In this document: positions 2,988 to 42,600 of the stretch, one piece after another
Layout: each line of letters starts with the position of its first letter
Position numbering within the stretch: the first letter of the stretch is position 1
Source of the DNA: Bacillus multifaciens
GTDB taxonomy: Bacteria > Bacillota > Bacilli > Bacillales > Bacillaceae_G
Reading direction: 5' to 3'
Length of the DNA stretch: 64,000 bases
NCBI RefSeq assembly: GCF_030756675.1
Contig: NZ_JAVBXD010000008.1
Span: 1-64,000, forward strand
Notes under the pieces: model-generated
Database searches by the model: none
Seen by the model: only the letters and a program-made list of their open reading frames with translations
Told to the model about the DNA's origin: nothing
Translations under genes and position numbers: made by a program

Positions 2988-3374
2988 TTAATATGTTAAA
3001 CACCCAGCAATCACAACTCCGATGGAAATTGATAAAAACATAAGAAAAAGTCCGACAGCCTGGTTATCTTCTTCAATGCTTTGATTAATATTGAAACGTG
3101 GTGTGCACAATTCGGCTAAATAAAATACAACGATTTGTGCTAAAACTCCAATCGCTCCCCATAATGCCATATCCATTAGTGAAACAGAATGAGCAGCAGT
3201 AGAATACAAGACGATAGCAAGACCAAGAAGTCTTCCTCCAAGCACGTAGCTTGCTGCTTTATTTCCTTTAGCTATTAATGAAAATTCCTTCACTTTTGTT
3301 GTCACTTCCATAAGAAATAAACCGATACTTAAAAGACCGAACGAAACAGTTACATAAAGTAAAAAGTTCATCAA
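2988..3374 (-). CDS. DUF350 (YjfL-like) membrane protein
   Basis: 128 aa, strongly hydrophobic with four likely membrane helices (residues about 4-24, 44-64, 68-88 and 106-127). It matches DUF350/YjfL-type proteins in character. Its start overlaps the end of the upstream ATP-grasp gene by four bases (ATGA), so the two are translationally coupled. DUF350 proteins are repeatedly found beside glutathionylspermidine-synthase-like genes, as in the E. coli yjfKLMC cluster. Function unknown; a membrane partner for the ATP-grasp enzyme is an inference. Confidence 0.75.
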   Translation of the reverse strand: MMNFLLYVTVSFGLLSIGLFLMEVTTKVKEFSLIAKGNKAASYVLGGRLLGLAIVLYSTAAHSVSLMDMALWGAIGVLAQIVVFYLAELCTPRFNINQSIEEDNQAVGLFLMFLSISIGVVIAGCLTY

Positions 3375-4603
3375 TTACAATCCCCCTTTTTAATCCCAAC
3401 AGGTAAATAATAAGATTCATTTCCCGTAATTTTTTCACCGGCACGTATACCAATACTACTTGGTTTCCCAGCAATTAAAAACGATCCAAACACATACGAT
3501 AGCTCCTCGTTCCCTTTTTCAGTCTCAAGAGAAACAACTGGAAGCGTTATATATTTTTGAAATACGGGAAGTTCCTTTTTATACGTTTGATTTGAATTTT
3601 GAATCATAATACTCTTGTCTTTGTCACGAATTATAACCGTGTCACCTTCTCTGCCAAACGAGGGTTTTTGAACAAAAGAACTTTTTCCTAAAAATAAATC
3701 TGGTTCTAAGTAAGTAGGAAGCATATATTCCTTAATCCATTGTCGTTCCTCACTCGTATAAAAAGCACCTATCTCAGCTAATCCCCAAACCAAGCATTGA
3801 ATCGATTTCGGCTGAAGTAGAAAGGATGAAACAGGATTTATAATAAAAAGCTTTCCTTTCTCTACAAGTTGCAATAACTCAAGCCCGACAAAGTCCCCAG
3901 TTTTAGGATCCCGATCCACAACTAAATCTTCGATAGGATATGTTTGACGATACAAAATATCAATTGGCACACCGTCTCTGTCGACCAAAGCATCTTCAGT
4001 AATTCGAAGCTCTGACATTGACACCATTTTATTTTTCACCTGACATAGCTGACTCAAATACATAGTAGTATTCCAATCTTCTATATGCTCATGATGGGCT
4101 GTGAAGACAACGTTTGGCATTCTCATCCCTTTAGCAGCTTCCATTACGGCTTTTGTGATACCAGAAGAAAGAAGACGGTCCTGATTCTCGTTTGGGTCAT
4201 GATAATTGAATTCTTTGCATACTATGCCATTCATTTGGAAGCATTCCACAATAAAAGTTGGGGTATCACTATTAAACTCAAGCATTTTGATACCACCATC
4301 CGTCAAAGCAAAATCAAACCGTGAAATAATAGATTCAGGAAACAGAGATTTCATTCTGATAAAAGGCAGACTTGAAGATGGAAAACCAAGTTCAAGAAGC
4401 TGATCATCAGGCAAGGTTCGAAGAAGGCTAGCAGTCTTAAAAAATACTTTTCCCATTCGTTCTGTTGCTAATTGCAACTGCCTAATAGTTTGTTCAGTTA
4501 TTTCAAAAACATGAAAAAGGCTATACTCACTTCCGTACAAGTCAGACCAAAAGTAAGGAACCCTTGAGTAAAATTGCCTTCGTTCCTTTATGTAAAACGA
4601 CAT
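3371..4603 (-). CDS. Glutathionylspermidine synthase-like ATP-grasp ligase (YjfC type)
   Basis: 410 aa with the preATP-grasp/ATP-grasp architecture of glutathionylspermidine synthetase. Conserved segments include RFDFALTDGGIKMLEFNSDT (arginine, aspartate, glutamate and asparagine that bind metal and the acyl substrate) and FVQKPSFGREGDTVIIRD (glycine-rich ATP loop). It lacks the amidase domain of the E. coli bifunctional enzyme and has the size of the YjfC group, whose substrate is not known to me. It should form an amide bond with ATP, but bacilli do not make glutathione, so the true substrate is open. It lies between a lipoprotein and a DUF350 membrane protein in one operon. Confidence 0.8.
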   Translation of the reverse strand: MSFYIKERRQFYSRVPYFWSDLYGSEYSLFHVFEITEQTIRQLQLATERMGKVFFKTASLLRTLPDDQLLELGFPSSSLPFIRMKSLFPESIISRFDFALTDGGIKMLEFNSDTPTFIVECFQMNGIVCKEFNYHDPNENQDRLLSSGITKAVMEAAKGMRMPNVVFTAHHEHIEDWNTTMYLSQLCQVKNKMVSMSELRITEDALVDRDGVPIDILYRQTYPIEDLVVDRDPKTGDFVGLELLQLVEKGKLFIINPVSSFLLQPKSIQCLVWGLAEIGAFYTSEERQWIKEYMLPTYLEPDLFLGKSSFVQKPSFGREGDTVIIRDKDKSIMIQNSNQTYKKELPVFQKYITLPVVSLETEKGNEELSYVFGSFLIAGKPSSIGIRAGEKITGNESYYLPVGIKKGDCN

Positions 4604-5648: not shown

Positions 5649-5725
5649 ATTTGAATCACACGAATATTTTTTATGTTATCCACACAATAAAACTCAAATT
5701 ATTCCTAGTAGACTTACAAAAAAAT

Positions 5726-5758
5726 AAAAACCTTACGTATAAAACGTAAGGTTTTTTT
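5726..5758 (-). terminator. Terminator of the tandem structured RNA
   Basis: Perfect hairpin AAAAACCTTACGT / ACGTAAGGTTTTT with T-rich flanks on both sides. On the minus strand it follows RNA element A within a few bases. Confidence 0.85.
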
Positions 5759-5761
5759 ATT

Positions 5762-5936
5762 CCCACATATGCCGTTCTCATTTAGATGTCCATAAACCCA
5801 CTCTCGCAGGTGGATGTTCTCAAAAAGGCTTTCATCTTCCTTCTTAAAAAGATGGCTTGATGGCCACATTTTAATATTGAACTTCCGTATTACTATCATT
5901 GGTTTAAGACATACACAAGCTACGTACATCGTAGGC
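5762..5936 (-). ncRNA. Unidentified structured RNA, element A
   Basis: 175-base unit closely related to element B next to it. It can fold as a closed structure. The outer stem pairs CCTACG-ATGT with GCATATGTGGG. A second stem pairs ATGTC..AAACC with GGTTT..GACAT. A small hairpin CCTGC-GAGA-GTGGG has a GNRA-type loop. Conserved segments between stems include GATAGTAATACGGAAGTTC and GAACATCCACCTGCGAG. It has no good reading frame and ends in a strong terminator. I do not recognise a named family (6S, SRP, tmRNA and T-box were considered and did not fit). Confidence 0.6.
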
Positions 5937-5966
5937 AGTTATTATTAATCATAAGTATAAATAGAA

Positions 5967-6141
5967 CCCCGCACGTGCCGTCTCTCGTAAATGTCCAAAA
6001 ACCCGCTACTCGCAGGTGGATGTTCTCACAGTTGCCTTTCATCTTCCTTCTCAAAGAAAGGCATGATGTTGGCATCTAAATATCGAACTTCCGTATTACT
6101 ATCATCGGTTTTAGACATAAATAAGTTACGCACACCGCAGG
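5967..6141 (-). ncRNA. Unidentified structured RNA, element B
   Basis: Second 175-base copy, exactly the same length as element A and 30 bases upstream of it on the minus strand. Compared with A, at least two base pairs of the outer stem change from A-T to G-C with both partners altered, one pair of the second stem flips from T-A to A-T, and the small hairpin changes a G-T to G-C. This is the pattern expected from selection on RNA structure. No terminator separates B from A, so a joint transcript of about 430 bases is likely. Confidence 0.6.
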
Positions 6142-6162
6142 ATGTTTTATTTATTTGTCGTT

Positions 6163-6191
6163 ATCTTATCACATTGTTCGCAATGTGTAAA
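6163..6191 (-). promoter_or_regulatory. Promoter of the tandem RNA with a palindrome in the spacer
   Basis: -35 TTTACA (6186-6191), 17-bp spacer, -10 TAAGAT (6163-6168) on the minus strand. The spacer holds an inverted repeat, CACATTG-TTCG-CAATGTG (6170-6187), that overlaps the -35 box. This position suits binding by a repressor or a MerR-like activator; which one cannot be told. Confidence 0.55.
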
Positions 6192-6261
6192 ATAATTTGT
6201 TTTTTAAGTATTTCTTGTTTGTGCTCCTATTGTAATACAAATTTTTTTGACGTGCAATAGG

Positions 6262-7095
6262 CTACTGTTCTTCTTTTACAATTGTATTTTCAGGATAAGA
6301 AATCCAATCGCTCCAGCTACCTACATACAATTTTATATTTGTAAACCCTACCATTTTTAATGTTAATACGTTTGGACATGCCGTTACACCAGATCCGCAA
6401 TAAACAATCGTTTCTTTCTTTTTATCAAGATGGATAAAACGATTTTCTTGTGCCTTCTGCTCCTTAAAAGCACCAGAGTCTGTTACACCATCTTTCCAAA
6501 AATAATTTTGCGCAGTTGGAATGTGACCAGCTGCTTTATCAACTAATTCTTCTAATCCTTCATAACGTTTTGGTTCACGCGAGTCAATCAGTGTAACATC
6601 TGCATGTTTGCTAATTTTAGCTTGCAGCTCTTCCATTGTTACAACAGTATCATGTTGTATAGATGGAACGAATGTCTTAGGTGCAAAGACTGCTAGCTCA
6701 TTCGTTACTTCAAAATTTTGTTCTTTCCACGCTGGGAAACCGCCATTTAACACATATGTTTTGTTATGCCCAAGATACGTTAAGAGCCACCATAGACGAG
6801 AAGCCATTGCTCCGCCTTGGCTATCATATGCCACAACTGTCGTATGCTCATCAATCCCAGCTTGTGAAAGCTTTTGTACAAATTCTTCTATACATGGAAG
6901 CGGATGACGTCCGCCATGCTTTGTAACCAGACTTGATAAATCTTTATTTAAATCAAAATAGAGCGCAAACGGAATATGTGCTTCATTATATTGTTCTCTT
7001 CCCCAATTTGCATTCGCTAAATCAAAACGGCAATCGATAATTCGAACCTGCTCATCTTGTATATGTTCGTGTAACCATTCGGCTGTAACGATCAT
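6262..7095 (-). CDS. Sulfurtransferase (tandem rhodanese domains)
   Basis: 277 aa with two rhodanese domains: an inactive N-terminal one (about 1-120) and a catalytic C-terminal one. The active loop is CGSGVTACP with the catalytic cysteine. It matches thiosulfate/3-mercaptopyruvate sulfurtransferases, which move sulfane sulfur to cyanide or thiols. The CGSGVTAC loop is the form often annotated as 3-mercaptopyruvate sulfurtransferase, but substrate preference cannot be fixed from sequence. It follows ypbS by two bases, so is probably co-transcribed. Confidence 0.9.
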   Translation of the reverse strand: MIVTAEWLHEHIQDEQVRIIDCRFDLANANWGREQYNEAHIPFALYFDLNKDLSSLVTKHGGRHPLPCIEEFVQKLSQAGIDEHTTVVAYDSQGGAMASRLWWLLTYLGHNKTYVLNGGFPAWKEQNFEVTNELAVFAPKTFVPSIQHDTVVTMEELQAKISKHADVTLIDSREPKRYEGLEELVDKAAGHIPTAQNYFWKDGVTDSGAFKEQKAQENRFIHLDKKKETIVYCGSGVTACPNVLTLKMVGFTNIKLYVGSWSDWISYPENTIVKEEQ

Positions 7096-15493: not shown

Positions 15494-15536
15494 CTTTGCA
15501 AAGAAAAGAATGCAACTATAGCAATATATTCGTCCT

Positions 15537-15607
15537 CACTCATAGTCGAAGCATTTACGGTACTTCGGTAGAAACTTGCAGGCCATATCCCTGCTATTAT
15601 ATGAGTG
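15537..15607 (-). promoter_or_regulatory. Guanine (purine) riboswitch aptamer
   Basis: Minus strand CACTCATATAATAGC, GATATGGC, GCAAGTTTCTACC, TACCGTAAATG and GACTATGAGTG fit the purine aptamer almost base for base with that of B. subtilis xpt. The specificity base in GACTATG is C, so it binds guanine/hypoxanthine and not adenine. Confidence 0.96.
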
Positions 15608-15635
15608 TTGCTAACTTATTTAATTTAATAAAAGG

Positions 15636-24373: not shown

Positions 24374-24794
24374 ACATTCATGATTGGTTCATAACGTTCT
24401 GTAAGCCATGTTCTGTACCTTTGTACTGCAAACGGCCCACGCCTCGTACTCCGGTGGCAATCATCTATCTACAGAGCAATTGCATCTGTCCTTTCCCATC
24501 GTTCATTTCCTTAGGAAAAGTTCCCCTACCAATATTTGGGTTTCTCGCTCGTGGGGTTTACCTCGTTCCACTCCCGTCATTTCTTCCGGGACTTCGTCAC
24601 TGTGGCACTTTAAAGGTAGTCAAACCATATCCAGATGGACTTAGGCTTTTTCCCTGCCGTTAATCCAGCTTTACGCCAAATTACCCTAGCTTATGACTTC
24701 GCTAGGCACGAACACTACGACCATCTCAGGTCGTGCGAGCATGGACTTTCCTCTACAACAAAGCGTTGCAGCGATTACCCAAACGTTATGACAT
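24374..24794 (-). ncRNA. rnpB: RNase P RNA (type B)
   Basis: The catalytic RNA of ribonuclease P, which matures tRNA 5' ends. The minus strand carries GAGGAAAGTCCATGCTCGCA, CGAAGTCATAAGCTAGGG, AAAGTGCCACAGTGACGAAG, GAGCGAGAAACCCAAAT, TGTAGATAGATGATTGCC and the closing CTTACAGAACGTTA, in the same order as B. subtilis type-B RNA. Length about 420 bases with defined promoter and terminator. Confidence 0.97.
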
Positions 24795-42473: not shown

Positions 42474-42500
42474 TAGTATCATTCGGCAATATTCATCCCT

Positions 42501-42588
42501 CTGTCCCAGTCCTATTTTGGATCAAGGCAGAACCACATGTTTATTTTGATTTTTCCACATAGCGGTGCAGTTCCAATCGATACTGCCC
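42501..42588 (-). promoter_or_regulatory. Tandem pan RNA motifs in the panB leader
   Basis: Two hairpins (42564-42588 and 42501-42530, read on the minus strand) have the same plan: two short helices, each with one unpaired A, on opposite strands. First: GGGCAGTATC with GGAACTGCACC. Second: CTGCCTTGATCC with GGACTGGGACAG. Two bulged adenines and tandem arrangement upstream of panB are the described features of the pan motif. Ligand not known to me. Confidence 0.75.
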
Positions 42589-42600
42589 ATATTCGCCCTT

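Follow-up and report, generated by a model that had tools for sequence, protein, structure and literature searches.

The 64,000-nucleotide stretch of Bacillus multifaciens DNA analysed here, called the window throughout, carries a pair of 6S RNAs on its minus strand, within positions 5726 to 6191. In an Rfam 15 scan of the window, the first copy, which occupies the ssrSA position, matched the 6S/SsrS RNA family (RF00013) at 6146-5962 with 95.7 bits (E 6.7e-18), and the second copy, in the ssrSB position, matched it at 5940-5756 with 99.0 bits (E 1.1e-18). The gathering score of the family is 46.4, and both copies span model positions 1 to 187, all 187 positions of the model, so that the two units are full-length members. 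Upstream of the pair lies a gene for a protein with two rhodanese stretches (6262-7095, minus strand; Pfam PF00581, E 7.7e-37), and downstream of it a gene for a glutathionylspermidine-synthase-like protein (3371-4603, minus strand; Pfam PF03738, E 1.1e-50). Two short open reading frames across the stretch, one of 71 amino acids (minus strand, 5714-5929) and one of 89 amino acids (plus strand, 5991-6260), were set aside because the RNA accounts for the conservation.

An initial annotation, made from the sequence alone, had seen two homologous structured units on this strand, and these are real. It gave the units a length of 175 bases and a spacing of 30; there are two of them, yet by Rfam each measures 185 bases with 21 between them. 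Its statement that the units belong to no recognised family is wrong because both match RF00013 strongly, and the Rfam search that it had itself proposed as a check thus returned a strong match to a known family. A new structured RNA family, merely resembling 6S RNA and having another role, has nothing to recommend it beyond that first impression. Both copies score about twice the gathering score over the complete model, and the tandem that PMC7726162 describes between like neighbours is one of 6S RNA genes, which makes a new family scarcely credible; it was rejected on the RF00013 matches of both copies.

The window holds further RNA features away from this pair. An M-box (magnesium) riboswitch (minus strand, 2745-2910, 149.3 bits) lies upstream of a 240-amino-acid open reading frame (minus strand, 1712-2434) that matches the N-terminal domain of cation P-type ATPases and the first part of the E1-E2 domain only, and this ATPase gene looks cut short. 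Class B RNase P RNA (24397-24786), a purine riboswitch (15523-15624) and a pan motif (42497-42589), all on the minus strand, also scored above their Rfam gathering scores.

The layout of the 6S locus is compact. A candidate sigma-A-type promoter, TTTACA-17-TAAGAT with a TG before the -10 element, is found at 6163-6191 (minus strand) and agrees with the consensus at 9 of 12 positions, while ahead of the second copy the closest promoter-like stretch agrees at 8 of 12, both figures coming from consensus matching on sequence only. The first 6S transcript probably starts about 10 bases before the Rfam match. Between the two matches lies an A+U-rich linker of 21 bases (5941-5961, minus strand), presumed to be a processing region, and a terminator scan placed an intrinsic terminator with a 13-pair stem followed by a T-run at 5726-5756 (minus strand). 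Terminator-like sites are in excess over chance in this region (4 found, 0.4 expected), whereas promoter-like sites are not (4 found, 4.7 expected from shuffles). Of the promoter and strong terminator that had been assigned to the locus, a terminator candidate is present; so is a promoter-like site, yet by number such sites are no better than chance. A perfect inverted repeat, CACATTG-CGAA-CAATGTG, was read from the sequence at 6170-6187, with no strand assigned. It takes up most of the -35/-10 spacer of the candidate promoter and may serve as a binding site for a regulator.

The two window copies are 78-79% identical to each other. Folding of the first (upstream) copy compared with dinucleotide shuffles gave a z of -4.37, with none of 200 shuffles as good, and the second (downstream) copy gave a z of -2.79, with 1 of 200 as good; in the single fold of the second copy, pairs fill part of the central bubble. 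Standard pairs are present at 46 of the 51 RF00013 pairs in the first copy and at 44 of 51 in the second. When the copies were compared over the same 51 pairs, 34 were the same, 2 had changed on one side, 7 had changed at both partners without loss of pairing, and 8 were non-standard in at least one copy. The seven two-sided changes include, in the outer stem, G-C/A-U at 9-178 and at 12-175 and, in the inner stem, U-A/A-U at 75-117; these are the three paired double changes named in the initial annotation.

Covariation was further assessed in an alignment of 21 6S RNAs, consisting of both window copies and 19 sequences picked from fetched loci. The RNAalifold consensus has 39 pairs, in 21 of which both sides changed while pairing was maintained; 95.4% of the cells are paired. 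The covariation score is 0.419; the 500 shuffles averaged 0.168 and all fell below it, and six slid versions scored no higher than 0.095, a control that leans in favour of the consensus structure because that structure was derived from the sequences scored. Covariation over homologues is strong, and the window copies have the long, imperfectly paired hairpin and central bubble that it preserves. The conserved unpaired parts that had been singled out from the sequence form the two strands of the central bubble of 6S RNA, and the small hairpin noted beside them is the 3'-central-bubble hairpin known from B. subtilis 6S-1 (PMC8876501), whose four counted pairs (helix 8) are standard in 21 of the 21 aligned sequences. 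With a terminator and a promoter-like site at hand, the locus is rightly described as structured, co-varying small RNAs in a stand-alone tandem. The stretch expected to template pRNA differs between the window copies, being AAAACCGATG in one and TAAACCAATG in the other.

A tandem of this kind has been described in the B. cereus group, where the two 6S genes are called ssrSA and ssrSB (PMC7726162); the introduction of that paper credits the tandem to Wehner et al. 2014. In B. thuringiensis BMB171, ssrSA (+1 to +193) and ssrSB (+215 to +398) are reported to be co-transcribed from one promoter, as judged by 5'-RACE, lacZ fusions and RT-PCR, with a start site and its -35 and -10 elements mapped upstream of ssrSA, and the same account reports no second promoter before ssrSB (PMC7726162). 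Its authors propose processing of a precursor and state that both mature 6S RNAs are seen in transcriptome data, mainly as separate RNAs (PMC7726162). The BMB171 genes are placed between a 'thiocyanase' gene and a glutathione spermidine synthase gene (PMC7726162). By Rfam and Pfam, set against that description, the window likewise has its 6S tandem flanked by a rhodanese ('thiocyanase') gene on one side and a glutathionylspermidine synthase gene on the other. In both, the two 6S genes are about 20 bases apart, with a promoter, in the window a candidate one, before the first and a terminator after the second. No difference between the two was found in this comparison, which was made with the description in PMC7726162 and not with the BMB171 sequence. 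On the strength of this gene order, the window looks like part of a B. cereus-group chromosome. The tandem pair and its operon layout are thus already in print, and the locus is an ordinary, known 6S gene pair.

The feature is very probably the ssrSAB operon, whose sigma-A-dependent precursor would be cut into two 6S RNAs that occupy RNA polymerase and are freed by pRNA synthesis. In such an operon, a single sigma-A promoter would give rise to a precursor ending at the terminator, and cleavage in the A+U-rich flanks would release two 6S RNAs, each roughly 185-193 nt long. Both would form a long hairpin whose central bubble mimics an open promoter, so that sigma-A RNA polymerase would be occupied once growth has stopped. 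When growth resumes, the polymerase would use the 5' side of the bubble as template for a short pRNA, and this synthesis would cause the 6S RNA to refold and leave the polymerase. Open-promoter mimicry and release by pRNA synthesis are described for 6S RNA in PMC8876501 and PMC11077062, and by analogy we infer that both window RNAs bind sigma-A RNA polymerase and template pRNA.

The pair might instead contain one working 6S RNA, the other copy being in decay or re-purposed, and the growth, spore and crystal phenotypes that PMC7726162 ascribes to deletion of 6S-1 could be taken in that sense. Yet the second copy scores slightly above the first against RF00013, the Rfam pairs are kept to nearly the same extent in the two copies, and both mature RNAs appear in transcriptome data according to PMC7726162, all of which makes a single working copy distinctly improbable.

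6S genes and their tandems were also sought in other genomes. All 101 genomes searched in the family to which G001 belongs had an RF00013 match scoring above the cut-off. When 397 genomes of the order were searched at DNA level with the window tandem, 40 had matches, some of the weaker ones covering the terminator end only, and a single match, in genome G399, spans both copies. One 'distant' search of a plasmid collection returned no match to the tandem. All 6S genes were then searched for in 13 genomes, comprising 11 from the tandem DNA search together with G002 and with G442, in which a tandem had already been seen. Matches were present in 13 of 13, amounting to 30 in total, and tandem 6S genes in two of them, G399 and G442.

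The G399 tandem (Bacillales, locus L085) resembles that of the window, with two 6S copies, 24 bases apart, beside rhodanese and dynamin-like GTPase genes and a terminator-like stretch after the second copy only. It differs in that tblastn found no homologue of the glutathionylspermidine synthase in the G399 locus. The G399 copies group with the single rhodanese-locus copies of G211 and G300 (100/99-100) and not with the window copies, a pattern that hints at an independent duplication or at concerted change.

The G442 tandem (locus L144, plus strand, 3134-3330 and 3444-3640; G442:C21:66133-66329 and 66443-66639) consists of two nearly identical copies with 113 bases between them, and its genome has four 6S genes. 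Each copy has a similar upstream stretch and is followed by its own hairpin-and-T-run terminator-like stretch, as judged by eye. This tandem looks like a recent duplication.

In six of the 13 genomes (G071, G134, G211, G300, G380 and G399), a 6S gene adjoins a rhodanese homologue, beyond which lies a homologue of the dynamin-like GTPase, matching the order in the window, and three of these six (G071, G134 and G380) have a homologue of the window's 5'-3' exonuclease on the other side. In the other loci compared, tblastn found no homologue of the window's glutathionylspermidine synthase or of its DUF350 protein, so the gene order of the window is shared on one side only. Among named genomes, relatives of the window rhodanese were found at 75 loci, the best at 57% identity and none labelled B. 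cereus group. An Rfam scan of 60 of these 75 loci, with fetched flanks of mostly 3 kb, found a 6S RNA near none of the 60, which indicates that the rhodanese-6S linkage is restricted.

To place the two copies, trees of 43 and 55 rows were built without any sequence labelled bsrB. In the 43-row tree, a 100/100 branch splits 17 aspS-linked rows from 26 others, and both window copies are among the 26; within these, the window copies join the rhodanese-locus copies on an 80/90 branch, which is not firm. The probe proteins from locus L114 are, judging by resemblance, presumably AspS and TcdA (YrvM). In the 55-row tree, both window copies fall in one 15-row clade (100/97), with a long-branch warning on another row. 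An approximately unbiased (AU) test rejected the first copy when it was forced into the aspS-linked 6S-1 group (p-AU 0.026), but did not reject the second copy in that position (p-AU 0.197). The window copies as sisters gave a p-AU of 0.45.

The aspS-linked locus is bsrA, encoding 6S-1, in B. licheniformis and B. subtilis, and B. subtilis bsrA is described as a single gene between aspS and yrvM (PMC3871023, PMC11077062). The aspS-linked 6S RNAs, including B. subtilis 6S-1, share with the window copies the RF00013 family, the central bubble and the small 3'-bubble hairpin, but the window copies lie at another locus and fall outside the aspS clade in the free tree. In PMC7726162 the B. subtilis-group gene linked to aspS goes by the name ssrSB, whereas PMC3871023 and PMC11077062 call it BsrA (6S-1), so that the naming is inconsistent in the accounts given by these papers.

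If the published names are followed, the tandem would consist of a B. subtilis 6S-1 orthologue that has moved beside a 6S-2 orthologue. The AU result for the second copy is compatible with such a relocation; the rejected placement of the first copy, the 100/100 branch that parts the aspS-linked rows from both window copies and the shared 15-row clade of the 55-row tree oppose it, and we consider it unlikely. The tree placement and the AU results make local duplication of a rhodanese-locus 6S gene the likelier, though not proven, history of the window pair. For the B. cereus group as a whole, the fuller proposal that the pair arose by local duplication of a non-6S-1 gene at the rhodanese/dynamin-GTPase locus, and that this locus was separately duplicated in G399, is one on which we are evenly divided.

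With both copies outside the aspS-linked clade and near the rhodanese-locus 6S RNAs, the names 6S-1 and 6S-2 as applied to the tandem may not denote orthology with the B. subtilis genes, which is a modest addition to what is in print. An origin of the tandem from a rhodanese-locus 6S gene would bear on any comparison of what deletion of 6S-1 does in B. subtilis and in the B. cereus group. Loss of 6S-1 in B. thuringiensis is reported to lower stationary-phase growth, spore number and crystal content (PMC7726162), and the discussion of the same paper states that its loss in B. subtilis brings sporulation forward. If the local duplication is true, the differing effects of '6S-1' deletion on sporulation in the two groups would come from a comparison of non-equivalent genes.
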